Source: Cryobacterium sp. PAMC25264 | GTDB lineage: Bacteria; Actinomycetota; Actinomycetes; Actinomycetales; Microbacteriaceae | DNA: 64,000 bases | NCBI RefSeq assembly: GCF_019443325.1 | Contig: NZ_CP080383.1 | Span: 3,968,001 to 4,032,000, forward strand | Reading direction: 5' to 3' | Part shown: in pieces, positions 11,593-32,472 of the stretch | Layout of the letters: each line of letters starts with the position of its first letter | How positions within the stretch are numbered: position 1 is the stretch's first letter | Made by a program: the position numbers and the translations under genes | Notes under the pieces: generated by a model | Told to the model about the DNA's origin: nothing | The model's database searches: none | Seen by the model: the letters and a program-made list of their open reading frames with translations, nothing else

Positions 11593-11615
11593 AAATGTTC
11601 TGGGTCTAAACATAT
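11593..11615. promoter_or_regulatory. Candidate ROK-type operator upstream of xylB
   Basis: AAATGT at 11593-11598 and ACATAT at 11610-11615 are separated by exactly 11 bases. The same architecture occurs upstream of xylA, LacI gene 3 and the second ROK gene. It is an AT-rich island in GC-rich DNA. The rest of 11408-11880 holds the leader stem and an AT-rich tract near 11790-11820 at the edge of the insertion sequence. Confidence 0.6.
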
Positions 11616-11880
11616 TCGGTCGGGGGTGGATGTTCAAACCTTCCGATGGTCGTTTCGCCGCGGATTCCCGGTGCAGCGGGGCCGGCCCGGCGGCGCCCTG
11701 CCTGCCGCATCGGCTGGTCCGCAGACGCGGCGCCCGGAGTTCCAGCGGTACCGCTCCCGCATAGTGTGAGGGCCCGCTGGCCGATTGTCGTTTAATTTAT
11801 GAGGTACTTTCTCCTTTTGTCACCCGTTCTGGGGTAGCTTGGCGTGACGGGGAACACGGGGGGGTGCCCCTATGTTCTTG

Positions 11881-13080
11881 TCAAGCGGCGAGCTGATGGT
11901 CGGCTTGGTAGAGGGTGCCGTCGCGGAGCATGGCGTAGAGAACGTCGCAGCGTCGGCGAGCGAGGGCGATGAGGGCTTGGTTGTGGCGTTTGCCTTGGGC
12001 GATTTTGCGGTCGTAGTAGGCGCGTGAGAGCGGGTCGCGGAGCGCGGCGAAGGCGGAGAGGAACAGGGCTCGTTTCAGGATCTTGTTCCCGCGTCGGGAG
12101 GGGTGCTCGCCGCGGATGGAGCTGCCGGAGCGGCGGGTGACCGGTGCGAGGCCGGCGTAGGCGGCGAGGTGGCCGGCGGTGGCGAAGTCCTTGCCCGAGA
12201 CTTCGGTGAGGAGTCTGGCGGCGGTCCTGATCCCGACTCCGGGCATGCTGATCAGGACGGGGTGAAGAGGGTGAGCCTCCACGAGCCGTTCTACTTCGAC
12301 CGCGATCTCGTCCCGTTGCCGGCGGAGTGCTGCGAGTTGTTCGGCGAGTCTGGGGAGCACAATGCTGCTGGCATTCGTGCCAGTGACCACGACGGTCTGC
12401 TCGCTCAGGGCCCGGGTGATTTCGTCTGCGAGGCGGCGGCCCATGCGTGGTGCCAGCTTCACGAGCCGGTTGCCAAGGCGGGTCGTGCCGGCCGCTTTCA
12501 TCGCAGCTGGCGTGGGGTAGCGCTGCAGCAAGTCCAACACCGCGGGATGGTCCAAGTGCGGGCCGAGAACACGCTCCAACGCGGGGTGGATCTGGGTGAG
12601 GAGGCCCCGGATGCGGTTACTCGTGGCGGTGATCTGGCCGACAACGTCGTCGTCGAAGCCGCAGAGCATCGAGAGCTCAGCAACCTGCTCATCAGCCAGC
12701 TGTAGCGACCGCAGGGCGTGCGGGAGGCTCCTCGCGGCTTGGGCGATGATTGCCGCGTCGCGGGCATCGGTCTTGGCTTCACCGGCGTGCAGGTCCGCGA
12801 TGCGGCGCATTGCCAGACCGGGCAGGTAGCCCACGAGCACGCCTTCGGCCTGGGCCACGGCGATCGGTAAGGCACCAATAGTCGCCGGCTGATCAACGAC
12901 GAACAAGACTTGGCCGTGTCGTTTCAGCTGCCCGATCAGCTCGCGCAGCTTCGCCTCATCGTTGGGTAAAGCCTTGTCGAAGAGTTGCTTGCCGGCCCGG
13001 TTGAGGGCGACCGCGTGGTGTTCTCCCTTGCCGACGTCCACGCCGATGAAGACGTCGACGCTGTCGTAGTTCTCGATCAT
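11881..13080 (-). CDS. IS110-family transposase (DEDD/serine recombinase)
   Basis: The protein has 399 residues. The N-terminal RuvC-like domain shows D15 (G-V-D-V-G-K), D63 (V-V-D-Q-P) and D105/D108 in K-T-D-A-R-D-A. A coiled middle part follows, then the Transposase_20 domain starting S-M-P-G-V-G and continuing to G-L-A-P-V-T-R-R-S-G-S-S-I-R-G. Both domains appear complete, so the copy may be active. Enzymes of this family recombine a circular intermediate with target DNA using a bridge RNA encoded in the element. Confidence 0.92.
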   Translation of the reverse strand: MIENYDSVDVFIGVDVGKGEHHAVALNRAGKQLFDKALPNDEAKLRELIGQLKRHGQVLFVVDQPATIGALPIAVAQAEGVLVGYLPGLAMRRIADLHAGEAKTDARDAAIIAQAARSLPHALRSLQLADEQVAELSMLCGFDDDVVGQITATSNRIRGLLTQIHPALERVLGPHLDHPAVLDLLQRYPTPAAMKAAGTTRLGNRLVKLAPRMGRRLADEITRALSEQTVVVTGTNASSIVLPRLAEQLAALRRQRDEIAVEVERLVEAHPLHPVLISMPGVGIRTAARLLTEVSGKDFATAGHLAAYAGLAPVTRRSGSSIRGEHPSRRGNKILKRALFLSAFAALRDPLSRAYYDRKIAQGKRHNQALIALARRRCDVLYAMLRDGTLYQADHQLAA

Positions 13081-13300
13081 GAATCCTCCGTCTCAGGTTC
13101 GACAAAGTTGGCCTGAATCGCGGCATCAAGTCTCGGCATCCACGTTACGAACGGCCTGGGACATGTCCCGGTCCAGCCCCTATCAGCGATCACCTGATAC
13201 CAGTCAGGCCCGGTGACAACACCCCCCGGATCATGGGCGACTGGGGGCAAGAACCATGCCGGGCCTGACAGGCCAACACCCTCACATAACTACACGATCA
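13081..13300 (-). ncRNA. Possible IS110 bridge-RNA region (left end)
   Basis: About 220 non-coding bases lie directly upstream of the transposase, the place where IS110-group elements such as IS621 encode their guide RNA. Within it GTCAGGCCCGG (13203-13213) pairs perfectly with CCGGGCCTGAC (13259-13269), and CCCCC/GGGGG arms lie between them, so the transcript can form long stems with internal loops. The limits and the guide loops are not determined. Confidence 0.4.
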
Positions 13301-13371
13301 AGGGCTACGAAGAAAGTAACGGGGGCGTCGACGTCCCAGCGAGTGGCTCTCCCTCGCAGTCAGGCACCTCA

Positions 13372-15832: not shown

Positions 15833-17023
15833 TTAGCGGGCGCCCAGCAGGTGCTCGAGGGCGAGCTGCTGCAGGCGCACGAAGCCGAAGCCCTTGCCGC
15901 CGAAGTACTCCTCGGGGGCGAAGTCCTCGTAGGCGCTGGTGTCGGCGAGGAAGTCGTCGTAGCTCTCACCCTCGGACAGGGTCGGCACCGACAGTTCCGG
16001 AACGCGCGAGGCGGCGAGCTGCTCCTGCACCTCGGGGTCGGCGCGGAAGGCCGCGGCGCGTTCCTTGAGGAGGAGGTAGGTGCGCATGTTCGCGGCGGCG
16101 GAGTCCCAGACGCCCGTGATGTCCTCGGTGCGGCTCGGCTTGTAGTCGAAGTGGCGCGGGCCGTCGTAGGACGGTCCACCGTTCGGGCCGCCGTTTTCGA
16201 GCAGGTCGACGAGGGAGAACGCGTTCTGCAGGTCGCCGTGGCCGAAGACCAGGTCCTGGTCGTACTTGATGCCGCGCTGGCCGTTGAGGTCGATGTGGAA
16301 CAGCTTGCCCTGGTAGAGCGCCTGGGCGATGCCGGCCGTGAAGTTGAGCCCGGCCATCTGCTCGTGGCCGACCTCGGGGTTGACACCGACGAGTTCGGGG
16401 CGCTCGAGGGTGGTGATGAACGCCATCGCGTGGCCGACCGTGGGCAGCAGGATGTCGCCGCGGGGTTCGTTGGGCTTGGGCTCGATGGCGAAGCGGATGT
16501 CGTAGCCCTTGTCGGTGACGTAGTCTCCGAGCAGGTTGACGGCCTCGCGGTAGCGGTCGAGGGCCGAACGGATGTCCTTGGCTGCGTCGTACTCGGCGCC
16601 CTCGCGGCCGCCCCACATGACGAAGGTCTTGGCGCCGAGCTCGGCGGCGAGGTCGAGGTTGCGCAGCACCTTGCGGAGGGCGAACCGGCGCACGGAGCGG
16701 TCGTTGGAGGTGAAGCCGCCGTCCTTGAAGACGGGAGCGCTGAAGAGGTTGGTGGTGATCATCGGAACGATCACGCCGGTGTCGGCGAGAACCTGCTTGA
16801 GACGGTCGATCTCTTTCTGGCGGGCGGCATCCGTGGAGCCGAAGGCGAAGAGGTCGTCGTCGTGGAAGGTGAGGCCGTACGCGCCCAGCTCGGCCAGTCG
16901 GGTGACGGCCTCGACGGTGTCCAGGTGCGGGCGGGTGGGCCCGCCGAACGGGTCAGCCCCGTTGTAGCCGATGGTCCACAGGCCGAACGAGAACTTGTCG
17001 GCGGGGGTGGGGGTGAGGGACAT
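15833..17023 (-). CDS. xylA: Xylose isomerase (class I)
   Basis: The 396-residue cytoplasmic enzyme converts D-xylose to D-xylulose. All active-site residues of the Streptomyces-type enzyme are at the usual numbers: H54 and D57 for ring opening, K183, and metal ligands E181, E217, H220, D245, D255, D257 and D287. The length fits the compact class I form of actinobacteria. It diverges from the monosaccharide importer operon. A candidate ROK operator lies 31 bases upstream of its start. Confidence 0.96.
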
Positions 17024-17053: not shown

Positions 17054-17076
17054 ATTTGTTGCAATTACCAACATAT
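17054..17076. promoter_or_regulatory. Candidate ROK-type operator upstream of xylA
   Basis: ATTTGT at 17054-17059 and ACATAT at 17071-17076 are separated by 11 bases, the same layout as at 11593, 22954 and 32450. Its position close to the xylA start would let a bound repressor block xylA and possibly the divergent importer operon. Confidence 0.62.
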
Positions 17077-17291: not shown

Positions 17292-17498
17292 AACGGTGGC
17301 CTGAGATAAGTTCTGTCCGTCAACAAAGGCCGCTTTAGCGGTGGGTCAATCACAGCGATGTCCCGTTACAAGGAGGTAACCCTGACACGCGTTTTTCCCA
17401 ATGCCGGGGGAGCGCGGGACAAGATTTCCTCCTCTGGCAGGTACCGGTCTACCGGTGTCTGTGGTGACTGGCAGCTCTCAGAGAGGAAAGCTCCAACA

Positions 17499-18626
17499 AT
17501 GTCCAAGACCAAGAAAATTCTCGCCCTCGCGGCGGCCGGCGTCTTCGCGCTGACGCTCGCATCCTGTTCAAGCAGTGGATCCACGTCGGGAAGCTCCGAC
17601 GCTGCCGGCGCCGGAGGGGCCGACTGCAACGTCGGTATCTCGATGCCCACCCGTTCACTCGAACGCTGGATCAACGACGGCGACCAGCTCAAGAAGCTGC
17701 TCGAAGACGCCGGCTGCACGGTCGACCTGCAGTACGCAGACAACAAGACCGACCAGCAGATCAGCCAGATCCAGAACCAGGTCGCCGGCGGATCGAAGAT
17801 CCTCGTCGTGGCCGCCGTCGACGGCAAGGTGCTGGCCCCCGTGCTCGCCGAGGCCAAGAAGCAGGACGCGACCGTCATCGCCTACGACCGCCTGATCAAC
17901 GGCACCCCGGACGTCGACTACTACGCGACCTTCGACAACTACAAGGTGGGGCAGCTGCAGGGCCAGTTCATCGAGAAGGAACTCGACCTCGCCAACGCGA
18001 CCGGGCCGATCAACCTCGAACCGTTCGCCGGCAGCCCCGACGACAACAACGCCAAGTTCTTCTTCTCCGGCGCGTGGGATGTTCTGCTGCCCTACGTCGA
18101 GAAGGGCGTGCTCGTGGTTCCGAGCGGCCAGTCGCCCGCCTCCGACGACGACTGGGCCTCGATCGGCATCCAGGGCTGGGCCAGCGACAAGGCACAGTCC
18201 GAGATGGACAACCGTCTGTCGTCCTTCTACACCGGCGGCGACAAGGTCGACGTGGTGCTCTCCCCGAACGACAGCCTGGCCATCGGCATCGAGGCCTCGC
18301 TGAAGTCCGCCGGATACGCACCGGGCGCCGACTACCCGATCATCACCGGACAGGACGCCGACAAGGCCAACGTTAAGGCGATCCTCGACGGTGAGCAGTC
18401 CATGACTGTGTGGAAGGACACCCGCACGCTCGGCAAGCAGGTCTTCGACATGATCCAGGAGATCGTGGCCGGCAATGACGTCACCGTCAACGACACCAAG
18501 ACCTACGACAACGGCGACCACGTGGTGCCGTCGTACCTGCTCGACCCCGAGGTCGTCGTCAAGGACGATGTGCAGTCCAAGCTCATCGACTCCGGCTTCA
18601 TCAAGGCATCGGACGTCGGCCTCTAA
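17499..18626 (+). CDS. chvE: Monosaccharide ABC transporter substrate-binding lipoprotein (ChvE type)
   Basis: The protein has 375 residues. The signal peptide ends at the lipobox L-A-S-C. The body is a family-4 sugar-binding protein (I-S-M-P-T-R-S-L-E-R-W, Y-D-R-L-I near 130, S-P-N-D-S-L-A-I-G). ATG 17499 is preceded by GAGAGGAAAG; a longer in-frame start at 17358 would spoil the signal peptide. Related ChvE/XylF proteins bind xylose, arabinose, glucose or galactose. Divergence from xylA points to xylose as one substrate. Confidence 0.92.
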   Translation: MSKTKKILALAAAGVFALTLASCSSSGSTSGSSDAAGAGGADCNVGISMPTRSLERWINDGDQLKKLLEDAGCTVDLQYADNKTDQQISQIQNQVAGGSKILVVAAVDGKVLAPVLAEAKKQDATVIAYDRLINGTPDVDYYATFDNYKVGQLQGQFIEKELDLANATGPINLEPFAGSPDDNNAKFFFSGAWDVLLPYVEKGVLVVPSGQSPASDDDWASIGIQGWASDKAQSEMDNRLSSFYTGGDKVDVVLSPNDSLAIGIEASLKSAGYAPGADYPIITGQDADKANVKAILDGEQSMTVWKDTRTLGKQVFDMIQEIVAGNDVTVNDTKTYDNGDHVVPSYLLDPEVVVKDDVQSKLIDSGFIKASDVGL

Positions 18627-18677
18627 CGAGCCGATCGGGGCCGGCTCGTCCAGCCAGGGCGGGCCGGCCCATCCGAC

Positions 18678-18701
18678 GGGCACCCGGGAAACCGGGTGCC
18701 C
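18678..18701 (+). promoter_or_regulatory. Intercistronic stem-loop with GAAA loop after chvE
   Basis: GGGCACCCGG and CCGGGTGCCC form a perfect 10-bp stem closed by a GAAA tetraloop, 27 bases before the ATPase start. No T-run follows. It is suited to protecting the chvE message from 3' decay. Confidence 0.65.
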
Positions 18702-18728
18702 GGTCCATCAGCAAACCAGGAGAGCGTA

Positions 18729-20261
18729 GTGGAGCATTCGATCATCCTCAGGATGAACAACATCGTGAAGGACTTCAATGGGGTGAAGGCCCTCGACGGC
18801 GTGTCCCTCGAGGTCACGAGGGGGCAGGTGCACGGCATCTGTGGGGAGAACGGCGCGGGCAAGTCCACGCTGATGAAGGTGCTCAGCGGCGTATACCCGG
18901 TCGGGAGCTTCGACGGGACCATCGAGTTCGAGGACCACGAGGTGGCTTACAAGTCAATCAACGACAGCGAACACGACGGCATCGTCATCATCCACCAGGA
19001 ACTGGCGCTGAGCCCGTACCTGTCCATCGCCGAGAACATCTTCCTCGGCAACGAGAACGCCACCCGCGGGGTGATCGACTGGAACAAAACCAACCGTGAG
19101 GCCGCCCTGCTGCTGGCCCGGGTGGGCCTGGACGAGAACCCGGCCACCAAGATCCTCGAGCTCGGTGTGGGCAAGCAGCAGCTCGTGGAGATCGCTAAGG
19201 CGCTCTCCAAACGGGTCAAGCTGCTCATCCTCGACGAGCCCACCGCCGCCCTGAACGACGAAGACTCCACGCACCTGCTGGGCCTGATCGATCACCTGCG
19301 CACGCAGGGCATCACGTGCATCATCATTTCCCACAAGCTCAAGGAGATCAAACGCATCGCCGACACCGTCACGGTGATCCGGGACGGCAAGACCATCGAG
19401 ACCATCCCGATGGACGGACCGGATGCGACCGAGGCGCACATCATCCGCGCCATGGTCGGCCGCGACCTCAATAACCTGTTCCCGCCGCGGGAACCCGCCA
19501 TCGGCGCCGAGGTGCTGCGGGTGGAGAACTGGACCGTGCACCACCCGGTCGACGTGGCCCGCAAGGTCGTCGACGGCGCATCCTTCACCGTCAACGCCGG
19601 TGAGATCGTCGGGTTCGCCGGCCTCATGGGCGCCGGGCGCACCGAACTGGCGATGAGCCTGTTCGGCCACTCCTACGGCACCAACATCTCCGGCCAGGTC
19701 TTCAAGGACGGCACTGAGATCCACATGCGCACGGTGGGGGAGGCTATCGAGCACGGCTTCGCTTACGCCACCGAGGACCGTAAGCGCTACGGCCTCAACC
19801 TCATCGGCGACATCACCGTGAACGTGTCGGCTGCGGCCCTGGCCAAGCTCGCCAAGTACGGCGTGATCGACCGGCACCGCGAGTACAAGGTCGCCGACTC
19901 GTACCGCCAGAAGATGAACATCAAGGCGCCGTCGGTCGGATCGATCACCGGCAAGCTCTCCGGCGGAAACCAGCAGAAGGTGGTGCTGTCGAAGTGGATC
20001 TTCTCCGGCCCCGACGTGCTGATCCTCGATGAGCCCACCCGCGGCATCGACGTGGGCGCCAAGTACGAGATCTACGGCATCATCAACGAACTCGCGGCGC
20101 AGGGCAAGGCGGTCATCGTGATCTCCTCCGAGCTGCCCGAGCTGATCGGCATCTGCGATCGCATCTACGCGATCTCGGAAGGAAAACTCACCGGCGAGGT
20201 CGCCAAGGCCGACGCGTCGCAGGAAACCCTCATGCATTACATGACCGCAGGAAAGGACTGA
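18729..20261 (+). CDS. mmsA: Monosaccharide ABC transporter ATP-binding protein (tandem domains)
   Basis: This is a 510-residue protein with two fused ABC domains. Domain 1 has Walker A G-E-N-G-A-G-K-S at 39-46, Q-loop H-Q-E-L, signature L-G-V-G-K-Q-Q and Walker B L-L-I-L-D-E-P-T. Domain 2 has a degenerate Walker A (G-L-M-G-A-G-R-T) but an intact signature L-S-G-G-N-Q-Q and Walker B, as usual in this family. The GTG at 18729 is taken as the start because CAGGAGAG lies before it. It energises uptake through the next gene's channel. Confidence 0.93.
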
Positions 20262-20266
20262 GCGCG

Positions 20267-21487
20267 ATGACCACCACCACGCCAGCGAGCAGCAAGGCGC
20301 CCACAGAACCACCCGTGAAGCGACGGATGCCCAAGCTCTCGATCAACCTTCGCCAGTACGGCATCGTCGCGGCCCTAGCCGTGATCGTCATCCTGTTCCA
20401 GATCCTCACCGACGGGCGCCTCCTGCTGCCCGGCAACGTGAACAACCTCATCCAGCAGAACGCCTACGTGCTGATCCTCGCGATCGGCATGGTCATCGTG
20501 ATCATCGCCGGGCACATCGACCTCTCGGTCGGATCCGTCGTGGCCATGGTCGGCGCCGTCGCCGCGATCAGCATGAACAACTGGGGCCTGCCCTGGTGGG
20601 CCGCGGTCATCGTGTCGCTGCTGGTCGGCGCCCTGGTCGGCGCCTGGCAGGGCTACTGGGTGGCCTTCGTGGGCATCCCGGCGTTCATCGTCACCCTGGC
20701 GGGCATGCTCATCTTCCGCGGGCTCACCCTCGTGCTGCTCACCGGTGGCACCATCAGCGGCCTGCCGCCGGAGTTCACCGCGATCGGCGCCGGCTGGCTG
20801 CCGTCGTACCTGGGCGAACTGGGCGGGCGCGACGTGCTCACCCTGGCGCTGGGCATCCTCACCGCCGTGGCCCTGATCGTCTTCCAGCTGCGCACCCGGG
20901 CCACGCTGGCCCGGCTCGACCTGCCGCGCGAACCTGCCGCATCGATGTGGACCAAGAACGGCATCGCCGCGGTGGCGATCATCTGGTTCGCCTGGTTGCT
21001 CAGCGACTACAGCGGCACCCCGATCATCCTGATCGTGCTGGCCGCGCTCATCCTGATCTACAACTTCGTGCTCAACCGCACGGTGTTCGGCCGTCACGTC
21101 TACGCCATGGGTGGCAACCTCTTCGCCGCCGTGATGAGCGGTGTGAAGACCAAGTGGGTCAACTTCTACATCTTCGTCAACATGGGCGTGCTCGCGGGCC
21201 TGGCCGGAGTGGTCTCGACCGCCCGGGCCGGCGGCGCCGTCGCCTCGGCCGGACAGAACTACGAGCTCGACGCCATCGCGGCCGTCTTCATCGGCGGCGC
21301 GGCAGTGCAGGGCGGCGTGGGCACCGTGGTCGGCGCCGTGGTCGGTGGCCTGGTGATGGGCGTGCTCAACATGGGCCTGTCCATCCTCTCGGTGGATGCC
21401 GCCTGGCAGATGACGATCAAGGGGCTGGTGCTGCTGCTGGCCGTGGCGTTTGATATCTTCAACAAGCGGCGCGCTGGGGGACGATAG
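20267..21487 (+). CDS. mmsB: Monosaccharide ABC transporter permease
   Basis: This 406-residue membrane protein of the BPD_transp_2 family has about ten membrane segments and the conserved G-H-I-D-L-S-V-G-S and A-A-V-F-I-G-G-A-A-V-Q-G-G-V-G-T motifs. It starts five bases after the ATPase stop, so the genes form one operon. It is longer than RbsC-type permeases, as is normal for the XylH/GguB/MmsB branch. Confidence 0.92.
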   Translation: MTTTTPASSKAPTEPPVKRRMPKLSINLRQYGIVAALAVIVILFQILTDGRLLLPGNVNNLIQQNAYVLILAIGMVIVIIAGHIDLSVGSVVAMVGAVAAISMNNWGLPWWAAVIVSLLVGALVGAWQGYWVAFVGIPAFIVTLAGMLIFRGLTLVLLTGGTISGLPPEFTAIGAGWLPSYLGELGGRDVLTLALGILTAVALIVFQLRTRATLARLDLPREPAASMWTKNGIAAVAIIWFAWLLSDYSGTPIILIVLAALILIYNFVLNRTVFGRHVYAMGGNLFAAVMSGVKTKWVNFYIFVNMGVLAGLAGVVSTARAGGAVASAGQNYELDAIAAVFIGGAAVQGGVGTVVGAVVGGLVMGVLNMGLSILSVDAAWQMTIKGLVLLLAVAFDIFNKRRAGGR

Positions 21488-22953: not shown

Positions 22954-22976
22954 ATTTGTAGACAATCACCACAAAT
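22954..22976. promoter_or_regulatory. Candidate ROK-type operator upstream of LacI gene 3
   Basis: ATTTGT at 22954-22959 and ACAAAT at 22971-22976 are perfect inverted repeats with an 11-base spacer. It is the most symmetric of the four sites in the window. It lies 130 bases before the LacI gene of the xyloglucan-type cassette, so xylose-responsive control of that cassette is plausible. Confidence 0.62.
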
Positions 22977-23020
22977 TACTTGCGGAACCGTGGATGCGTG
23001 TCGTAGGCTCCTAGAGCAGC

Positions 23021-23036
23021 AGTCGAAACGTTTAGC
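23021..23036. promoter_or_regulatory. LacI-type operator before LacI gene 3
   Basis: TCGAAACGTTT at 23023-23033 repeats 11 bases of the strong palindrome at 24149-24172; the right arm is degenerate. The location suggests weak autoregulation. Confidence 0.55.
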
Positions 23037-23105: not shown

Positions 23106-24119
23106 ATGGCCAACATTCACGACGTTGCCCGCGTCGCCGGGGTGTCCATCAGCACGGTCTCCTACGCCCTGAGCGGCAAGCGCTCCATCGCCGCCTCCAC
23201 CAAGCAGCGCATCGACGAGGCCGTTCTCGAGCTCGACTACCGGGCCAACGCCGGTGCGCGGATGCTCAAGGGCGCGCGCACCAACATCCTCGCGTTGAGT
23301 GCCCCGCTGCACGCCGGAACCCACGCTCCGGCGCACATGACCTTCGTGCTCTCGGTGGTCACGGCCGCCCGCAAGTACGACTACGACGTGCTGCTGCTCA
23401 CCCAGGACGAAGCCACCAGCGGCCTCCGCCGGGTGGTGCGCAGCTCCCTGGTGGATGGCATCGTGCTGCTGGACGTCTCCACCGCCGATCCCCGCACCGA
23501 CCTGGTTCGCGAGCTCGGCCTGCCGGCCACGGTGATCGGCATCCCCACCGACACCGACGGCCTCACCTGCGTCGACCTCGACTTCGAGCAGGCTGCCGTG
23601 ATGGCCGTGCGTCGGCTGGTCGACCTCGGCCACCGCGAGATCGGCCTGATCGGCCAGGCCCCGCTGATCTACGAGCGCGGATCGAACTTCCCGCCGCGTT
23701 TCCGCGACGCCTTCCTGGCCGAGGCCGCCCGCCTCGGCGTCACCACGGCCTTCACCCCCGCTGCCGAGGAATCGGCCGGGGTGCGCGCCGCGCTGGACGG
23801 CCTCACCGCGTCGCTGCCCGGCATGACCGGCCTGGTGCTGCACTGCAACGAACCCGTGCAGTCCATGGTGCTCGACCTGCTCACCCAGCGCGGCATCAGC
23901 GTGCCGAACGACCTGTCGGTCGTCTCGGCCTGCTCCAGCTTCTCCACCGACCATCTCAATCCGCCCCTCGACGTGATCCCCCTGCCTGCTGACCAGTCCT
24001 GCACTCGCGCAATCGAGCTCACGATGGCCCAGCTGAGCGGGAACGCCGAGCCGCACGTCGAGTTCATCGAACCGACGTACGTCGAGCTAGGCTCGACGAC
24101 CGCCCGCCGCCGCCACTAG
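23106..24119 (+). CDS. LacI-family regulator of the xyloglucan-type cassette
   Basis: The protein has 337 residues. The helix-turn-helix starts at once (N-I-H-D-V-A-R-V-A-G-V-S-I-S-T-V-S-Y-A-L), with hinge R-A-N-A-G-A-R-M-L-K-G. ATG 23106 has GGAG five bases upstream; an in-frame ATG at 23055 adds 17 unconserved residues. The effector domain is of the usual length. It should repress the downstream importer and glycosidase genes through the palindrome at 24149. Confidence 0.88.
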   Translation: MANIHDVARVAGVSISTVSYALSGKRSIAASTKQRIDEAVLELDYRANAGARMLKGARTNILALSAPLHAGTHAPAHMTFVLSVVTAARKYDYDVLLLTQDEATSGLRRVVRSSLVDGIVLLDVSTADPRTDLVRELGLPATVIGIPTDTDGLTCVDLDFEQAAVMAVRRLVDLGHREIGLIGQAPLIYERGSNFPPRFRDAFLAEAARLGVTTAFTPAAEESAGVRAALDGLTASLPGMTGLVLHCNEPVQSMVLDLLTQRGISVPNDLSVVSACSSFSTDHLNPPLDVIPLPADQSCTRAIELTMAQLSGNAEPHVEFIEPTYVELGSTTARRRH

Positions 24120-24148
24120 GACCCGGAAAGGAAGTTTTTTCGCGGGCC

Positions 24149-24172
24149 AACTATCGAAACGTTTCGAAAGTT
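24149..24172. promoter_or_regulatory. LacI operator of the xyloglucan-type cassette
   Basis: This 24-bp palindrome has one mismatched pair. Its perfect core TCGAAACGTTTCGA lies at 24154-24167 with the central CG typical of LacI-family sites. It lies between the regulator stop and the binding-protein gene. A partial copy precedes the regulator itself. Confidence 0.75.
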
Positions 24173-24270
24173 GCCCGCCGCCCAACGTTCCACCGCACCG
24201 TGCTCCACCGCACCACAGCCCCATCACCCCGTGCATCATCACCCGTGCATCACTACAAGGAAGTAGAACA

Positions 24271-25569
24271 GTGAAGAAAACCAAGAGAAGCCTCGCCGGC
24301 ATTGCCGTGCTGGGCGTCAGCGCCCTCCTCCTCTCCGGCTGCTCGGCCGGCGGATCCGGTGGGGGCGACGAGAACACCCTCAAGCTCTGGCACTTCGAGA
24401 GCGACACCAGCGCCATGGGCATCGCCTGGGACGAAGCCATCAAGGTCTTCGAGGAAGAGACCGGCGCCACGGTCGAATTCGAGGAGAAGAGCTTCGAACA
24501 GATCCGCTCCACGGCCAGCCAGGTGCTCAACTCCGACCAGGCGCCCGACATCCTCGAGTACAACAAGGGCAACGCCACCGCCGGCCTGCTTGCGAGCCAG
24601 GGCCTGTTGACCGACCTCGACGACGCCTACGCCGAATACGGCTGGGACGACGCGCTCGCCCCGTCACTGCAGACCACCGCCCGGTATGACGAAGACGGCA
24701 TCATGGGCTCCGGCGCGTTCTACGGGGTGCCCAACTACGGCGAGTTCGTGGAGATGTACTACAACAAGGACATGTTCGCGGCTGCCGGCCTCGAGGTGCC
24801 CACCACGGTCGCCGAACTCGAGAGCGTCATGAAGGCGTTCACCGACCAGGGCATCACCCCGCTGGCCGAGTCGGCCGCGGAATACCCGCTTGGCCAGCTC
24901 TGGTACCAGCTCGCGCTGACCAAGGCCGACCGCAGCTTCGTCGACGACTACCAGCTCTACACCGGCGACGTCGACTGGAGCGGCCCCGAGCTGAGCTACG
25001 CGACCGAGACCATCAAGGACTGGACCGACGCCGGCTACATCTCCACCGACGCCAGCGGCTTCAAGGCAGAGGATGCCGGCACCGCGTTCATCAACGGCAC
25101 CTACCCGATCTTCTTCTCGGGTTCGTGGTGGCACAACCGGTTCACCACCGAGGCCACCGGCTTCGACTGGGGCACGTTCCTCTTCCCCGAGGCCGAAATG
25201 TCGCCCGGCTCCGCCGGCAACATGTGGGTTATCCCGGAGAAGGCCAAGAACAAGGACCTCGCCACCCAGTTCATCGACATCACGATGCGCCCGGAGATCC
25301 AGGCCCTCATCGGCAACAACGGCGGTATCCCCGTCGCGGCGAACACCGCAGACATCACCGACCCGAAGAGCCAGGAACTGATCGGCAACTTCAACGCGCT
25401 GACCGAGAAGGACGGCATCGCGTTCTACCCCGACTGGCCCACCGCCACCTTCTACGACCAGCTGAACGCCGGCCTGCAGGAGCTCATCAACGGCACCAAG
25501 TCGCCGGCTGACGTCAACGAACAGCTCGGCGGTCAGTACCAGTCTGGCGTCGACGACATCGTCGGCTAA
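24271..25569 (+). CDS. Sugar ABC transporter substrate-binding lipoprotein (xyloglucan-type cassette)
   Basis: The protein has 432 residues from GTG 24271, with ACAAGGAAG upstream. The signal peptide K-K-T-K-R-S-L ends in the lipobox L-S-G-C, and the mature part is a family-1 solute-binding protein (L-K-L-W-H-F-E-S, N-Y-G-E-F-V-E-M-Y-Y-N-K-D). It delivers an oligosaccharide to the two permeases. The alpha-xylosidase in the same operon suggests xylosylated glucosides such as isoprimeverose or xyloglucan fragments. Confidence 0.9.
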   Translation: MKKTKRSLAGIAVLGVSALLLSGCSAGGSGGGDENTLKLWHFESDTSAMGIAWDEAIKVFEEETGATVEFEEKSFEQIRSTASQVLNSDQAPDILEYNKGNATAGLLASQGLLTDLDDAYAEYGWDDALAPSLQTTARYDEDGIMGSGAFYGVPNYGEFVEMYYNKDMFAAAGLEVPTTVAELESVMKAFTDQGITPLAESAAEYPLGQLWYQLALTKADRSFVDDYQLYTGDVDWSGPELSYATETIKDWTDAGYISTDASGFKAEDAGTAFINGTYPIFFSGSWWHNRFTTEATGFDWGTFLFPEAEMSPGSAGNMWVIPEKAKNKDLATQFIDITMRPEIQALIGNNGGIPVAANTADITDPKSQELIGNFNALTEKDGIAFYPDWPTATFYDQLNAGLQELINGTKSPADVNEQLGGQYQSGVDDIVG

Positions 25570-25628
25570 CACTCCACCGAGCCCGGCTCGACCGGTACCA
25601 CCCCCCCCGGTACCACCCCGCAGTACCC

Positions 25629-25654
25629 GGCCGGGGGCCTCACGGCCCCCGGCC
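25629..25654 (+). promoter_or_regulatory. Intercistronic stem-loop after binding-protein gene 3
   Basis: GGCCGGGGGCC (25629-25639) and GGCCCCCGGCC (25644-25654) form a perfect 11-bp all-GC stem with a TCAC loop, just before the first permease. Next to it is a direct repeat of CCGGTACCACC. A role in favouring binding-protein expression is likely. Confidence 0.65.
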
Positions 25655-25691
25655 ACCACTGACAGACAGAGACAGAAGAGAAGGAAAGCGC

Positions 25692-26681
25692 ATGACGACA
25701 GCATCCGTGCTCCATGCACCCGGCGATGCATCCGGCGATGCTCCGTCGACAGGCAACCGCCCTGTCCGGCAGAGCCTCATCCCGGGAAGCAACCCCCAGA
25801 AATTCTGGATCTATCTCATTCCGGGACTGGCGCTGCTCACGCTGATCATCGTGATCCCGCTGGTGTGGAACGTGTACCTCACCTTCACCGACTACCGCGG
25901 CATCAAACCGCCGGAATGGGTGGGCCTGAAGAACTGGGCCAAGCTCGCCGGCGACACCACCTTCTGGACCTCGTTCGGCAACTCGATCGCCATGATCGTA
26001 GCCATGGTCGTCGTGCCCACCCTGCTCGGCCTGGTGCTTGCCGCCATGCTCTTCGACCTGATCGGCAAGAAGTTCGGCGGCAAGATCGCCAGCTTCCTGC
26101 GCGCCACCTACTACCTTCCGCAGATCCTGCCCGGCGTCGTCGCCGCGATCGTGATCGGCTGGATCCTGCGCCCGCAGAACGGCGCCCTCAACCAGGTGCT
26201 CGAGGGTGTGGGCCTGGGCGGCCTCACCCACAACTGGCTCGGCAGTCCCGACACCGCTCTGCCCAGCATCATGGTCATCATGATCTGGGTGCAGCTGGGC
26301 TACCCGATCGTCATCTTCATGGCCGCCCTGCAGCGGGTCGACCCCGAGCTCTATGAGGCGGCGGAACTCGACGGCGCCAACTGGATCCAACGATTCCGCG
26401 CCATCACGGTCAGCATCATCCGCCCCGAGATCTTCGTGGTCACCCTCACCTGCACGATCGCGGCACTCAAGGTCTTCGGCCCGATCTACACCCTCACCGG
26501 CGGCGGGCCCGGAACCTCCACCATCGTGCCCGCGTACTACGCGTACAGCGAGTTCTTCCAGTCCCAGCAGGTGGGCTACGGCGCGACCATCGCGACCGCC
26601 CTCACCATCGTCATCGCCGCCGTCTCGGTCGTCTTCCTCCTCGCCCAGACCCGACTCGAGCGTAAAGAAGAGGAACGCTAA
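25692..26681 (+). CDS. Sugar ABC transporter permease, MalF type (xyloglucan-type cassette)
   Basis: The protein has 329 residues and six predicted membrane segments. The EAA loop E-A-A-E-L-D-G-A-N lies near residue 222. AGAAGGAAAG precedes the ATG. The stop overlaps the next start by one base (TAATG), so the two channel subunits are translated together. Confidence 0.9.
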   Translation: MTTASVLHAPGDASGDAPSTGNRPVRQSLIPGSNPQKFWIYLIPGLALLTLIIVIPLVWNVYLTFTDYRGIKPPEWVGLKNWAKLAGDTTFWTSFGNSIAMIVAMVVVPTLLGLVLAAMLFDLIGKKFGGKIASFLRATYYLPQILPGVVAAIVIGWILRPQNGALNQVLEGVGLGGLTHNWLGSPDTALPSIMVIMIWVQLGYPIVIFMAALQRVDPELYEAAELDGANWIQRFRAITVSIIRPEIFVVTLTCTIAALKVFGPIYTLTGGGPGTSTIVPAYYAYSEFFQSQQVGYGATIATALTIVIAAVSVVFLLAQTRLERKEEER

Positions 26682-27604
26682 TGTCACACTCCACCATCCT
26701 CGAGGACGCCGTTCCGGCCAGTGGCACTGTCGTGCGATCCGTGCGTCCCCCGGCCAAGCGGAAGAACCGCAGCAGCACCACCCGCAAGACCCTCGGCGAC
26801 TGGATGATCCTGCTCGTCGCCATCCTGATCGGCCTGCTCATCGCCGTGCCGTTCTTCCTGATCCTGATCAACTCGTTCAAGTCGCCGGCCGACTACAACG
26901 CCGCGGGCCCCCTCACCCTGCCCACCAATCTCTACTTCGACGGCATGGTCAACTTCTGGGAGCGGGTGAACTTTCCGGAGAAGCTCTGGAACAGCTTCTT
27001 CATCTCCAGCATCGTGGCCATCCTCGCCGTGGTGATCTCGCTGCTGAACGCGTTCGCGCTGGGCATCGGGCGGGTGCGTGGCCGCACCTGGATCGTGCTG
27101 TTGATCCTGCTCGCCAACATGCTGCCGCAGGAAGTGCTGCTCTACCCGCTCTACTTCATGTTCAAGTCGGTGGGCCTCTACGACAACCAGTGGGCCGTCA
27201 TCATCATCTTCGTGGTGATCCAGAGCGCCTTCGGCACCTACCTGCTGGCCAGCGTGCTGGGCACGTTCCCCAAGGAGATCCTCGAGGCCGCGTCGCTCGA
27301 CGGCGCGAGCCGCTGGACGATCCTTTACCGGGTGGTCTACCCGATCACCAAGCCCACCCTGAGCGTTCTGGTGATCTTCTTCTTCATCTGGACCTGGAAC
27401 GAGTTCCTCATCCCGCTGACCTTCCTGGTCAGCAACGCCAGCCAGACCGTGCCCGTTTCCATCGCGGTGCTGCAGGGTGACCGGCTCATGGACGTCACCA
27501 CCACGAGCGCGTCGGCCCTGCTGGGCCTGCTGCCCACCCTGATCTTCTTCCTCATCTTCCAACGCACCCTCACCAGAGGCATCACCGCAGGAGCAGTCAA
27601 GTAG
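26681..27604 (+). CDS. Sugar ABC transporter permease, MalG type (xyloglucan-type cassette)
   Basis: The protein has 307 residues and six membrane segments, with the EAA loop E-A-A-S-L-D-G-A-S near residue 205. It is the second channel subunit and ends two bases before the alpha-xylosidase start. As in the other family-1 importers here, no ATPase gene is nearby. Confidence 0.9.
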   Translation: MSHSTILEDAVPASGTVVRSVRPPAKRKNRSSTTRKTLGDWMILLVAILIGLLIAVPFFLILINSFKSPADYNAAGPLTLPTNLYFDGMVNFWERVNFPEKLWNSFFISSIVAILAVVISLLNAFALGIGRVRGRTWIVLLILLANMLPQEVLLYPLYFMFKSVGLYDNQWAVIIIFVVIQSAFGTYLLASVLGTFPKEILEAASLDGASRWTILYRVVYPITKPTLSVLVIFFFIWTWNEFLIPLTFLVSNASQTVPVSIAVLQGDRLMDVTTTSASALLGLLPTLIFFLIFQRTLTRGITAGAVK

Positions 27605-27606
27605 TC

Positions 27607-29946
27607 ATGAAATTCACCGACGGTTTTTGGCACACCCGCCCCGGCGTCACCGCGCTGTACGCGCAGGAGGCGTACGACATCGAGCAGGTCGGCTCCGCCC
27701 TGCGGGTGTCGGCGCCGACCAAGACGATCGAACGCCGCGGCGACGTGCTCAACCGGGCCCTGCTCACGGTGACGCTGTCCTCGCCGTTGGAGGGCATCAT
27801 CCGGGTGCGGGTCGAACAGCACACCGGCGGCACGGCCAACCCGGGTTTCGACCTGGTCGGCGCCGAGCCGGATGCCGGCACGATCGTGATCGACGAGACC
27901 GGCGGCACCCTCACGGCCGGTGCGCTCACCGCCCGGATCGAACAGGGCAGCCCGTGGAACCTCTCCTTCGAGGCCGACGGACGCACCCTCACCTCGAGCG
28001 GACACAAGTCGATCGGGCACATGGACCTCGCCCCGCACGCGCCGATCGCCGCCGAACCGGCCGGAGTGGCCGGGGTCACGACCACGGGCCTGGCACCGGC
28101 CTGCGCCTACACGCACGCGCAGCTCTCGCTCGGCGTGGGCGAACTCGTGTACGGGCTCGGCGAGCGTTTCGGCCCGCTGACCAAGAACGGCCAGACCGTC
28201 GACATCTGGAACGCCGACGGCGGCACCTCCAGCGAGCAGTCCTACAAGAACGTGCCGTTCTACCTCACCAACCGCGGCTACGGCGTGCTCGTCAACCATC
28301 CCGAGCACGTCTCCTTCGAGCTGGGCACCGAGGCCGTGGAGCGCGTGCAGTTCTCCGTCGCCGGACCGGCCATCGAATACCTGGTGATCTACGGTCCGAC
28401 CCCCAAGGACGTGCTCGAGCGCTACACCCGGCTCACCGGCCGCCCCGCCAAGGTGCCGGCCTGGTCGTACGGCCTCTGGCTGTCGACCTCGTTCACCACC
28501 CAGTACGACGAAGCCACCGTCAACAGCTTCATCGACGGCATGGCCGAGCGCGACCTGCCGCTGTCCGTCTTCCACTTCGACTGCTTCTGGATGCGCGAAT
28601 TCAACTGGACCGACTTCGAATGGGACCCGCGGGTGTTCCCCGACCCCGAGGGCATGCTCGCCCGGCTGCACGAGAAGAACTTGCACGTGAGCGCCTGGAT
28701 CAATCCGTACATCGCCCAGCGGGCCGGCATCTTCGCCGAGGCCGCCGAGGCCGGCTACCTGGTGAAGAAGGCCAACGGCGCAATCTGGCAGTGGGACCTC
28801 TGGCAGGCCGGCATGGCCCTGGTCGACTTCACCAACCCGGCGGCCACCCGCTGGTTCCAGGACAAGCTGCGCGGCCTCTTCGCTCAGGGGGTCGACGCCA
28901 TCAAGACCGACTTCGGCGAACGCATCCCCACGGATGTGGTCTGGCACGACGGCTCCTCGCCCGACGTGATGCACAACTGGTACACCCAGCTCTACAACAA
29001 GGCCGTCTTCGAGGTGCTCCAGGAGCACCGCGGCGAGGGCGATGCCGTGCTCTTCGCCCGGTCGGCCACTGTGGGCGGGCAGATGCAGCCCGTGCACTGG
29101 GGCGGAGACAACTCCTCGTCGTTCGAGTCGATGGCCGAGACCTTGCGCGGCGGGCTCTCGCTGGCCTTCAGCGGCTTCGGTTACTGGAGCCACGACATCG
29201 GCGGCTTCGAAGGCATGCCGGATGCCGCCGTGTTCAAGCGCTGGCTGGCCTTCGGTCTGCTCTCCAGCCACTCCCGGCTGCACGGCTCCACCAGCTACCG
29301 GGTGCCGTGGCTCTTCGACGACGGCACGGAGGAACCCGGCCAGAGCGCCGTGGACGTGACCCGGTTCTTCACCAAGCTCAAGCTCGCCCTGATGCCCTAC
29401 CTCTATCGGGTGGGCCTGGAGGCGCACGCCACCGGCACGCCGTTCATGCGGCCCATGCAACTCGAATTCCCCGACGACCCCGCCGTGGACTATCTCGACA
29501 AGCAGTACCTGCTCGGCGGCGACCTGCTGGTGGCACCGGTGTTCAGCGCCACGGGTGACGTGCAGTACTACCTGCCCGCCGGCACCTGGACCAACTACCT
29601 GACCGACGAAGTCGTCACCGGCCCTCTCTGGCGCCGGGAGACCCACGCCTTCGACAGCATCCCGCTGTGGGTGCGCGAAGGCGCCGTGCTCGTCACCGGA
29701 TCCCGCGACGACCGGCCCGACTACGACTACACCGACGAGCCCCTCATCACCGTTTATCCGGGCGGCGACGGAGCGGACCGGGTTGTGTTCATCGACAACC
29801 CGCTGGACGGCAGCCACCGCACTGTCCACATCAGCACCGAACTCGACCAGACTGTCCTTACCGGCGATTCGGCGGTGCCGTTCCGCGCCCGCCTGGCCGG
29901 TGGCACTACCGTGGTCGCTACCGACCGAAAGGCACTTCTCCGATGA
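27607..29946 (+). CDS. yicI: Alpha-xylosidase, GH31 (YicI type)
   Basis: The 779-residue protein has no signal peptide, so it is cytoplasmic. The GH31 nucleophile is D435 in I-K-T-D-F-G-E and the acid/base is D501 in H-W-G-G-D-N. The K-T-D-F-G-E form and the 66-residue spacing are those of YicI-type alpha-xylosidases rather than alpha-glucosidases. It removes alpha-1,6-linked xylose from xyloglucan oligosaccharides. Its TGA overlaps the ATG of the GH1 gene. Confidence 0.93.
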
Positions 29947-31399
29947 CCAGCACCACCGCCCCCTCCGCGTCCGCGGGCAACCCCGACTACCGCGACTCCG
30001 GGCTCGTGTTCCCCGAGTCGTTCCTGTTCGGTTCCGCCACCGCCAGCTACCAGATCGAGGGCGCCTTCGACGAGGACGGTCGCGGGCCCTCCATCTGGGA
30101 CACCTTCAGCCACACCCCCGGCAAGGTCTGGAACGGTGACACGGGCGATGTCGCCGCCGACCACTACCACCGGCTCGAGGAGGACCTCGACCTGATGACA
30201 TCGCTGGGCCTGGCCGCGTACCGTTTCTCGATCGCCTGGTCGCGCATCCAGCCCACCGGCCGCGGCCCGGCCAACCAGGCCGGACTCGACTTCTACGGGC
30301 GTCTGATCGACGGCCTGATCGCCCGCGGCATCCGCCCGATCGTCACCATGTACCACTGGGACCTGCCGCAGGCGCTCGAGGATGAGGGCGGCTGGACCAA
30401 CCGGGCCACGGCCTACGCGTTCGCGGACTACGCGCGGATTCTTGGGCTCGCCTTCGGCGACCGGGTCGACACCTGGACCACGCTGAACGAGCCCTGGTGC
30501 TCCGCCTACCTGGGCTACGGCTCCGGCGCGCACGCGCCCGGCCGCACCGACGGCGCCGAGGCGCTCACCGCCGTGCACCACCTCAACCTGGCCCACGGCC
30601 TGGCGATTCAGGCGTTGAAGCCCGTGGTGACCAACGACCCCGACTTCTCGATCACGCTCAACTTGCACGTCATCCGCGGCGAGGGCGAGACCGGGCCCGA
30701 GGCCGTGCGCCAGATCGACGCGCTGGCCAACCGGGTGTTCCTCGGCCCGCTGCTGACCGGCGAGTACCCGGCGGATGTCTTCGAAGACACCGCGGGCATC
30801 ACCGACTGGGCGTTCGTCCTGCCCGGCGACACCGAGATCATCCACCAGCCGCTGGACGTACTCGGGTGAACTACTACTCCACCACCCTGGTGCGCATGTG
30901 GGACGGAGTCTCGCCCCGCGAGAACTCCGACGGACACAAGGACGTCGGCGCATCACCGTGGCCCGGCGCCGACCAGGTCGAGTTCCTCGCCCAGCCCGGC
31001 CCGTATACCGAGATGGGCTGGAACATCGAACCGTCCGGCCTCGAGGACCTGCTCGTGGCGTTGCACGAGGAGTTCCCGAACCAGCCGCTGATGGTCACCG
31101 AGAACGGTGCCGCATTCGCGGATGAGGTTGTGCCGACCGAGGACGGCCCCCGCGTGCACGACGTGGAGCGCACCGACTACCTGCGCCGGCACTTCACCGC
31201 CGCGCACCGGGCGATGGCCCGCGGCGTGGACCTGCGCGGCTACCAGGTGTGGTCGCTGATGGACAACTTCGAGTGGGGCTACGGCTACTCCAAGCGGTTC
31301 GGCATCATCCACGTGGACTACGACACCCTGGTGCGCACCCCCAAGGACAGCGCGCACTGGTACGCCGCCCTGGTCGCCACCCACACCCTCCCCGCCTAA
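29943..31399 (+). pseudogene. GH1 beta-glucosidase interrupted by a -1 frameshift
   Basis: The first frame (29943-30869) encodes the barrel up to L-D-V-L-G with acid/base E183 in T-L-N-E-P-W. It then meets TGA at 30867. The +1 frame continues without loss as V-N-Y-Y-S-T-T and carries the nucleophile in V-T-E-N-G. One extra G in the run at 30864-30866 would restore a normal enzyme of about 485 residues. Either this is a real lesion or a base was missed in sequencing. An intact enzyme would remove glucose after alpha-xylosidase action. Confidence 0.85.
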
Positions 31400-31411
31400 C
31401 CCCCTCCCGTT

Positions 31412-31474
31412 CCGCGAACTGTGAGTTAAGCCCCAAAAATCCCCGGATTTTGGGGCTTTTCTCACAGTTCGCGG
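31412..31474. terminator. Bidirectional terminator between convergent genes
   Basis: An outer perfect 14-bp stem (CCGCGAACTGTGAG with CTCACAGTTCGCGG) encloses an inner 11-bp stem (AAGCCCCAAAA with TTTTGGGGCTT). The inner stem carries A and T runs on both strands, so it can act as an intrinsic terminator either way. It lies between the GH1 gene and the epimerase gene. Confidence 0.8.
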
Positions 31475-31479
31475 GAGGG

Positions 31480-32340
31480 TCAGCGGGGGTCTTGCCAGGA
31501 GTGGGCGGGGGAGAAGCCCAGGAGGCGGCGGGCCTTGTCGATGCCGAGCAGTGTCTCGGTCCCGGTGACCTCGCGGGTGAGCTGCACATCCGGGAACACC
31601 TCGGAGGCCAGCTCGGCGCTCGGCCGCCGCATCACGGTGTCGGCGGCGGCGATGATGAAGCGCTCGAAGCCGGGCGGAGCGGTCTGCAGGGCCTTGAGCA
31701 CCGCCTGCGCGCCGTCGCGGCCGTCGATGTAGCCCCAGAGGTTCCACTTGCGCAGCGTCGCATCCGCCTGGAACGCCTCGAAACCGTCGTAGTCCTCCGG
31801 GTCCATCACGTTGGAGAAGCGCAGCGCCGTGATCGAAAGCGTCGGGTCCCAGCGCACCAGCTCAATGGCCATCTGCTCCTCGAGGTGCTTCACCAGTGAG
31901 TAGGTGCTCTCCGGGCGGGCCGGGTACTCCTCGTCGACCGGGATATAGGGCGGGTCGGTGTCGAACGGCAGACCGAGCACGGTCTCGCTCGACGCGTAGA
32001 CGATGCGACGGATGCCCGCACGGCGGGCCGCCTGGAACACGTTGTAGCTGGAGAGCATGTTGTTGTGGAAGGTGGCGACGTCGGGAGCCAGTCCCGGTGC
32101 GGGGATCGCGCCGAGATGCACGACGGCGTCGAAGCCGTCGATCTGGTCGTTGACGCCCGTGAACGCGTCGGCCACCTGACCGTAATCGGTCAGGTCGATG
32201 CGCACGAAGCCCGGTCCGCGACTGCCGGCCAGGTCGAAGTTGATCACCTGGTGGCCCTCGGCCCTGAGCCGGGCGAGGACGGTCTTGCCGAGTTTGCCGC
32301 TGCCGCCGGTGAGGGCGATTCTCATGCTGGGGGATTCCAT
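31480..32340 (-). CDS. NAD(P)-dependent epimerase/dehydratase (extended SDR)
   Basis: About 286 residues. The Rossmann motif G-G-S-G-K-L-G-K opens the protein, and the catalytic Y-S-L-V-K follows at mid-length with A-S-S-E-T before it. The ATG at 32340 has AAGGA six bases upstream; ATGs at 32346 and 32325 are alternatives. The layout resembles sugar epimerases and uronate dehydrogenases, but the substrate is not clear. It diverges from a ROK regulator with a candidate ROK operator between them, which suggests a role in sugar use. Confidence 0.78.
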   Translation of the reverse strand: MESPSMRIALTGGSGKLGKTVLARLRAEGHQVINFDLAGSRGPGFVRIDLTDYGQVADAFTGVNDQIDGFDAVVHLGAIPAPGLAPDVATFHNNMLSSYNVFQAARRAGIRRIVYASSETVLGLPFDTDPPYIPVDEEYPARPESTYSLVKHLEEQMAIELVRWDPTLSITALRFSNVMDPEDYDGFEAFQADATLRKWNLWGYIDGRDGAQAVLKALQTAPPGFERFIIAAADTVMRRPSAELASEVFPDVQLTREVTGTETLLGIDKARRLLGFSPAHSWQDPR

Positions 32341-32449
32341 GGACATCCTTGTCGTCGATCGGGTGTGCCGGAAGCGGCCCTGGCTGAGCCAGGTTGCGCT
32401 CCCGGGTTTCTCCGCTTAATTGTGCCCGTGTCGAAAAGGACTCCGGGCC

Positions 32450-32472
32450 ATTTGTGGCGATGTGCAACGTAT
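32450..32472. promoter_or_regulatory. Candidate ROK-type operator between SDR and ROK genes
   Basis: ATTTGT at 32450-32455 and ACGTAT at 32467-32472 with an 11-base spacer match the pattern upstream of xylA with one change. It lies in the 265-bp divergent region and could serve both genes. Confidence 0.5.

Follow-up and report, generated by a model that had tools for sequence, protein, structure and literature searches.

Regulators of the XylR type within the ROK family have been described in Bacillus, Clostridium, Anaerocellum bescii and Thermotoga maritima. They act on xylA, xylB or xylose transport and on genes for xyloside hydrolases by way of a palindromic operator (PMC12285236, PMC2873477, PMC3750489). 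In A. bescii, the ROK regulator XylR is paired with a LacI-family regulator, XynR (PMC12285236). A similar arrangement was found in the stretch of DNA analysed here (the window), which comprises 64,000 bases (3968001-4032000) of the 4.06-Mb chromosome of Cryobacterium sp. PAMC25264. It encodes two XylR-like ROK regulators (named here ROK1 and ROK2), a LacI regulator and genes for xylose isomerase (xylA), xylulokinase (xylB) and a sugar transporter of the xylFGH type. Five sites upstream of these and associated genes are predicted to be operators of the XylR-type ROK regulators and to form a xylose regulon, a reading given a probability of roughly 0.8. The conserved sites, their positions and gene context, the two ROK lineages and the helix that is identical in both were computed directly. 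Positions of up to five digits are counted from the first base of the window, longer ones are those of the chromosome (unless another genome or locus is named with them), and G and L numbers denote the genomes and loci compared.

Conserved, predicted operator sites in Cryobacterium and relatives

The conserved operator in Cryobacterium and other Micrococcales reads ATATGTT-N9-AACAWAT. Upstream of xylA in relatives the recurrent element is ATATGTT-N9-AACAAAT, and in 17 of 20 loci, that of the window included, 9 or more of the 12 half-site letters are matched by the best site there (exceptions L035, L037 and L038). Twelve xylA sites from relatives served to train a matrix; one of these, common to G004, G007 and G011, is identical to the xylA site of the window. 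The sites of the window score 36.1 bits at xylA (17054-17076), 25.3 bits at xylB (11593-11615), 20.2 bits at a cassette led by a LacI gene (22954-22976), 19.1 bits at xylF (17306-17328) and 18.7 bits between a gene of the SDR family and ROK2 (32450-32472), with two further hits at 47967 (17.2 bits) and 57092 (10.0 bits). Only xylA and xylB exceed 21 bits, the latter being second-best in the window despite a divergent half-site. The first-pass annotation had listed four sites sharing one half-site at a fixed distance, ATTTGT-N11-ACAWAT, all of them intergenic. Their placement between genes and the N11 spacing hold, but the common half-site does not: a pattern scan of the window showed no mismatches at 17054-17076 and 22954-22976, one at 32450-32472 (ACGTAT half) and two at 11593-11615 (AAATGT...ACATAT); the 23-bp geometry is kept in all four. 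The fifth site, on the xylF side, was absent from that list.

Eighty named loci around related ROK genes, mostly from Micrococcales and totalling 1,093,209 bases, contained 97 sites of at least 16 bits. The reversed matrix yielded 2, and 20 column-shuffled matrices averaged 2.0, with a maximum of 11. Ninety of the 97 lie near a gene from the 13-gene query set. Sites were identified at 48 of 51 xylA starts (misses in L187, L200 and L246) and at all 13 xylF genes. As these loci were picked by ROK similarity, a pentose context is expected, and the reversed and shuffled matrices serve as the controls. For the xyl genes, these counts contradict an origin of the pattern in chance or in dispersed palindromic repeats.

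In the same-genus relatives G004, G002 and G011, each of the five window sites has a counterpart at the corresponding gene; G007 has four of these and lacks the xylF site. G007 carries a remnant of ROK1 (G007:C1:356985-357188; 79% identical over 68 residues), and its LacI gene looks broken at the start (L086, about 9275-9480). ROK1 and the LacI cassette seem to decay together in this genome, and the transporter genes seem to be gone, as the ROK1 remnant lies only a few hundred bases from the xylA site. Among 18 same-genus relatives, xylA and a XylR-like ROK gene occur together in 13, ROK alone in one, xylA alone in none and neither in four (Fisher P = 0.0016, at a cut-off of E < 1e-90 that was set after the tables were inspected). 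The small pentose regulon read by ROK proteins that had been proposed in the first-pass annotation is well supported by phylogenetic footprinting and by this co-occurrence.

Outside the window, two sites are predicted to belong to the same regulon. One (3612742) lies at a second LacI gene and is discussed below. The other (2555172) is located just upstream of the coding start of a maltose-acetyltransferase-type gene (PF12464). A matching site is present in three of five other genomes (four of six with its own), with the ATG directly after the site in two of the four; no counterpart was found in G066 and G011 at up to three mismatches. This site was first taken for chance and is now regarded as a predicted member owing to the matching sites in relatives. 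The predicted regulon would therefore consist of seven operator sites, the five of the window together with 3612742 and 2555172.

Two lineages of XylR-like regulators

ROK1 (21505-22779, plus strand) and ROK2 (32606-33793, plus strand) are 54% identical, and both possess the ROK domain PF00480 (E 2.3e-48 and 4.5e-39, respectively). ROK2 aligns to ROK regulators of the PDB starting at residue 2-8, indicating an N-terminal helix-turn-helix (HTH). The stretch TGLNRSTIAALV is present in both proteins, in agreement with the first-pass annotation. When the HTH of ROK1 is aligned with Lmo0178 and further ROK regulators from the PDB, this stretch falls in their N-terminal region, and we take it to be the recognition helix. 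Its LNRST core was identified in 69 of the 80 named loci; it is missing from all four of the genome's other ROK paralogs with a readable HTH (eight of twelve were retrieved). A palindromic operator at xylose-gene promoters that is conserved among relatives, as expected of the XylR type, was found for ROK1 and ROK2 alike.

The two proteins differ in their zinc site. ROK1 carries the zinc motif CxCGxxGC together with the sugar motif ExGH (GELGHTLVNSQGVRCHCGRIGCLE). In ROK2 the zinc motif is lacking, the corresponding region being GEFGHTRVSDSDRVDSAGIRGTLE, and there is no cysteine in the whole protein; for want of this motif ROK2 is classed as a zinc-less, probably XylR-like regulator and not as a canonical XylR. 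CxCGxxGC is described as one of four signature motifs of ROK proteins, with some NanK kinases lacking it (PMC5458393). In a tree of 97 rows (built by a quick method with no bootstrap and showing several long branches), ROK2 falls within a clade of 50 rows with an SH-like approximate likelihood ratio (SH-aLRT) support of 96, while ROK1 lies outside it with Agreia and, more distantly, Arthrobacter. The tree omits short or stop-containing ROK hits, G002 duplicates and the rows of G029 and G014 (9532). The zinc motif is found in 0 of the 50 rows of the ROK2 clade and in 47 of the 47 others. This loss throughout a clade of regulators that keeps its operator is the most unusual feature of the case. 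In the same comparison, the xyl locus ROK of L235, a record titled Sporosarcina beigongshangi, was seen to cluster with that of Arthrobacter sp. HY1533; as the title names a species of Bacillota, either contamination or transfer is involved.

It is rather unlikely that only one of the two ROK proteins regulates the xyl genes, the other having drifted to another role. ROK2 would be the likelier drifter because of its lost zinc motif: cysteine changes in this motif compromised Mlc (PMC5458393), and ROK2 is cysteine-free. The remnant in G007 shows in turn that ROK1 is dispensable there. However, nine same-genus genomes whose single XylR-like ROK is zinc-less (G001, G005, G006, G009, G010, G014, G015, G017 and G018) keep xylA operators of 28-37 bits. 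Two genomes of the same order with a single zinc-type protein (G023 and G027) likewise keep xylA operators, of 33.1 and 21.5 bits. In addition, the recognition helix is identical in ROK1 and ROK2, and the consensus of the xylA operator is the same for 25 sites from zinc-type loci and 21 from zinc-less loci. In that comparison the lineage was judged from the retrieved stretch only, 5 of the 80 loci had no usable ROK, and C. arcticum, for example, which has both types, was counted as zinc type. The first-pass annotation had suggested that both ROK proteins could read the sites, and the eleven single-ROK genomes indirectly favour this.

Specificity of the motif

With up to two mismatches allowed, 13 strand-wise pattern matches were identified in the window where 0.45 were expected. 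Across the genome the pattern gave 44 forward matches compared with 7 for the reversed control, a count that was dropped as proof of a regulon because a dispersed 60-bp repeat inflates it. Order-3 Markov sequences of genome length, from a model trained on the GC-rich window, yielded 0-2 matrix hits of at least 18 bits in four runs. Genome-wide matrix scoring covered all distinct pattern matches and not every position, with two identical copies of one repeat match left unscored. Outside the window and the repeat, eight pattern matches reach 18.0 bits; two are the conserved predicted members 3612742 and 2555172, and the other six have no explanation.

These six weigh against the proposed regulon and slightly lower the confidence in it; several other results also count against it. 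They lie at 2796990 (20.6 bits), 2086461 (20.0), 2947443 (19.8), 3183017 (18.8), 216177 (18.3) and 2373959 (18.1), so that a score of 18-20 bits is weak evidence for a single hit unless the hit is conserved. Furthermore, no site reaches 16 bits in 21 of the 80 named loci, and the matrix was trained on xylA sites of relatives, some species of which recur among these loci. The operator of xylB is missing from one of the 12 closest xylB loci and was found in none of the 18 more distant ones scanned. On reading their surroundings, none of the six hits has a pentose context; an ABC-ATPase (ftsE-like) frame begins at 2086461, 2373959 has genes for a solute-binding protein and a TetR regulator next to it, and four of the six sit in low-GC stretches (GC 0.45-0.57). 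The one unexplained hit traced in relatives, 2947443, has a counterpart in 0 of 7. These six and the weak window hit 57092 are thought to be due to chance, and the window sites of 18.7-20.2 bits at three positions are credited for their conservation and not for their score. As for 3183017, it occupies a gap of low GC upstream of a large reading frame. On the strand opposite to that frame another ROK gene starts 104 bp away, and the hit is perhaps the own operator of this ROK gene.

The repeat accounts for a further look-alike. The hit at 47967-47989 was considered as an operator of the phosphoketolase gene (xfp) and pta, and was rejected since it is one end of a 60-bp palindromic element (47927-47986). 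Genes for tRNA-Ser and signal recognition particle RNA lie between it and xfp, and among 20 xfp loci (from 53 genomes with a match) a hit of at least 12 bits at the equivalent position was found only in its own genome and in G053. The element consists of two inverted 18-bp ends of the type TGTTNCC...CGGACAA, whose starts are 42 bp, or about four helix turns, apart. Ends of the form TGTTNCCNNNNCGGACAA, with up to one mismatch, gave 47 plus-strand and 50 minus-strand matches genome-wide compared with 0 and 0 in the control, of which 23 complete pairs are spaced exactly 42 bp and 51 ends stand alone. At three places (796229-797833, 1717682-1719286 and 3811792-3813396; L266, L268 and L267, respectively) the halves are 1604 bp apart instead of 42. 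The inserts are 99.4-99.5% identical over 1584 bases and encode an IS3-family transposase (NF033516, 160.6 bits with a cutoff of 160); as three of them split its halves, this IS3-family element seems to target the 60-bp element. Another dispersed repeat, ATTTGAACCCTTCGGGGTCAAAT, occurs in three identical copies at 212858, 829019 and 3701450.

Chance or dispersed repeats do explain 47967 and many of the pattern matches, and the six hits of 18-20.6 bits outside any pentose context would suit the same explanation. As an account of the five sites at pentose genes it is highly improbable: none of these carries the element (TGTTNCCNNNNCGGACAA ends 42 bp apart, listed in the window only at 47927-47986), and all recur at the same genes in relatives, whereas 2947443 does not. 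The first-pass annotation had asked that the motif be rarer in random intergenic regions than at pentose genes. It is conserved at the latter, but six hits of similar score occur elsewhere, and the pattern in the form ATTTGT-N11-ACAWAT proved too unspecific, as it also matches the 60-bp repeat and these six places.

Promoter layout of the xyl genes

At the -10 position, TATGTT is found exactly as the left half in 42 of 48 xylA sites. Hexamers with at least four matches to TTGACA peak at spacers of 16 (8 of 48) and 17 (9 of 48), with 0-3 such hexamers at each of the other 21 spacers tried. For these two reasons, the left half-site is probably the -10 box itself. By reading, the half-site has an xylA-like orientation at xylB (TTGAAC-N17-TATGTT), xylF and the SDR gene as well, and its location on the expected -10 of all four points to repression. 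For the ROK regulator NagR of Bifidobacterium, whose operators overlap the -10 or -35 in 10 of 11 cases, repression was deduced from this overlap and backed by a knockout transcriptome (PMC9599254). By analogy, xylA, xylB, xylF and the SDR gene would be repressed.

xylA (15833-17023, minus strand; TIGR02631 above cutoff) is preceded by its predicted operator at 17054-17076 on the same strand, with TATGTT (17070-17075) at the -10 position. On the plus strand, the predicted operator of xylFGH-ROK1 (17306-17328, with TAAGTT at 17307-17312) is followed by a sugar ABC transporter of the xylFGH type (ChvE-GguA-GguB type; 17358-21487; NF040907, NF040905 and NF040906 above cutoff) and by ROK1. The annotated start of the first transporter gene is probably too far upstream.

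xylB (9995-11407, minus strand) was given the ATG at 11405-11407 by homology; the longer frame 9995-11545 matches TIGR01312 above cutoff. In its predicted operator (11593-11615, minus strand), TATGTT (11609-11614) is at the -10; TTGAAC (11632-11637) lies 17 bp upstream of it. Of the 12 closest xylB loci, its own included (L271-L282), 11 have a site that scores 14 bits or more no further than 400 bp from xylB. As none of the 18 more distant loci scanned has one, the operator is considered a local feature. Between operator and ATG, the xylB leader holds a large palindrome at 11449-11530 (ACTCCTGCA ... TGCAGGAGT, with longer flanks) followed by a T-run. An exact-pattern search found its core in 9 of the 12 closest xylB loci but not in L275. 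Palindromes like it occur at three other places in the genome, and it may be an attenuator or a mobile repeat. About 250 bp upstream of the operator is an IS110-family insertion (about 11864-13320, transposase 11881-13080), which is absent from the relative G004.

The gene divergent from ROK2 (31480-32346, minus strand) belongs to the SDR / NAD-dependent epimerase-dehydratase family (PF01370); a search of NCBIfam at E 1e-15 gave no match. The predicted operator between the two (32450-32472) places TACGTT (32466-32471) at the -10 of the SDR gene. In L095 and L097 (G009 and G015), what appears by reading to be an aldo/keto reductase gene (MEFRYLGNSGLKVSE...) stands opposite the conserved ROK2 operator in place of the SDR gene.

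The LacI/alpha-xylosidase cassette

The cassette at 23106-29946 (plus strand) encodes a LacI regulator, a sugar-binding protein, two permeases and a GH31 alpha-xylosidase (NF007940 above cutoff). Its site (22954-22976, plus strand) lies 3 bp upstream of a -35-like TTGCGG (22980-22985), and a direct reading shows a -10-like TAGGCT (23004-23009) followed by a LacI-type palindrome, AGTCGAAACGTTTAG (23021-23035). In all 12 orthologous promoters, its own included, the site ends exactly 3 bp before the TTGC of the -35 and is followed downstream by TCGAAACGTTTAG; the palindrome reads GTCGAAACGTTTAG in 11 and ATCGAAACGTTTAG in one. The regulator encoded at 23106 possesses a LacI HTH and a sugar-binding domain (PF00356, PF13377), and the CG-centred palindrome at 23021-23035 is probably the operator of this LacI protein itself. 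The 3-bp gap is also readable at the second LacI gene of the genome (3612742), in the G004 counterpart of that gene (20.6 bits) and in Labedella. The second cassette likewise encodes an alpha-xylosidase, together with a GH42 beta-galactosidase.

That the cassette site belongs to XylR is only somewhat favoured, and it is the least certain of the window sites. Position 17 is C in 14 of 14 cassette sites (10 distinct) and A in 45 of 46 xylA sites, and position 7 lacks T in 12 of the 14, although T is near-invariant at xylA (45 of 46). Near three LacI relatives of 64-66% identity no site was found, the only one (33.2 bits) lying 743-770 bp upstream, and nothing reaches 8 bits at four more LacI genes of 57-58% identity. 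The deviations at positions 7 and 17, and the constant place 3 bp upstream of the -35 and not on the -10, would suit another regulator with a related preference acting at 22954 and 3612742, which would reduce the XylR regulon of the window to xylB, xylA, xylF and SDR/ROK2. This alternative is doubtful, since the 12 orthologous sites still score 15.7-23.1 bits with the matrix. Moreover, the orthologous lacI start of G066 is preceded, at a distance of 212 bp, by another site that resembles those of xylA (29.3 bits), sites with A17 occur at related lacI genes in G031, G035, G041 and G005, and no alternative candidate regulator was identified; CRP/GlxR was considered as a reader of the site and dropped on spacing. 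Attribution to XylR is tentatively retained for the cassette, which the first-pass annotation had counted among the members on an exact pattern match; that match stands, while position 17 and the promoter placement deviate.

A site at a constant distance upstream of the -35 would fit activation, and the ROK protein NagC is described as both activating and repressing glmUS (PMC10634360). The conserved 3-bp gap could also stem from descent alone.

Proposed regulation and comparison with known systems

We infer that the regulators bind the sites and repress transcription, that xylose acts as effector, and that ROK1 and ROK2 share the sites. Without xylose, a ROK dimer on ATATGTT-N9-AACAWAT would cover the -10 of xylB, xylA, xylFGH-ROK1 and the SDR gene and block transcription, and xylose or a close derivative would release it. 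ROK1, encoded by the last gene of the xylFGH operon and carrying the zinc motif, and the zinc-less ROK2, encoded divergently from the SDR gene, would both probably read the same operators. The LacI/alpha-xylosidase cassette would receive a second input through its variant site just upstream of the -35, besides that of its own LacI operator, and this input would couple the release of xylose from alpha-xylosides to its use. A more elaborate version is unlikely, though conceivable: the operators would be common to two non-equivalent regulators (ROK1 in the transporter operon and ROK2 tuning its own locus) that integrate two signals or affinities, with the same ROK protein acting positively at LacI cassettes from 3 bp upstream of the -35. 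If true, a whole clade of ROK sugar regulators would work without the zinc site whose cysteines Mlc needs.

What is proposed is a switch for xylose/xyloglucan in Cryobacterium and many other Micrococcales; its target genes are named, and its operator is distinctive in the distance between half-sites. The genome is also a natural test case for the role of the ROK zinc site, as it has related regulators with and without the motif that probably read the same DNA. The regulon is of the known ROK/XylR kind. No XylR operator for Cryobacterium or Microbacteriaceae was found in the titles and abstract openings of open-licence articles in PMC (RegPrecise and subscription journals are outside this scope), nor did that literature yield any account of this particular regulon, of the spacing in its operator or of the pair of zinc and zinc-less regulators.

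Among actinobacterial ROK proteins, RokB of Streptomyces coelicolor resembles the present system in its TTTGTT-type half-sites. It differs in that its operator, TTTGTTC-N11-GAACAAA, has cores 13 bp apart and in that its regulon hints at amino-acid metabolism (PMC4856308). Rok7B7 of S. coelicolor is a ROK regulator that influences xylose use, its specific DNA binding being undetected in electrophoretic mobility shift assays (PMC4856308). XylR of Bifidobacterium is a predicted actinobacterial sugar regulator tabulated for xylose (PMC4746261). The operators of A. bescii are also 23 bp long but read tagtttgtttaataaacaaacta, with TGTT cores 5 bp apart (PMC12285236), in contrast to 9 bp for ATATGTT-N9-AACAAAT of Cryobacterium. 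Lactobacillus brevis likewise has two XylR paralogs (PMC2873477). The Cryobacterium system differs from XylR of Firmicutes and Thermotogae in having two XylR lineages in one genome, one of them zinc-less.

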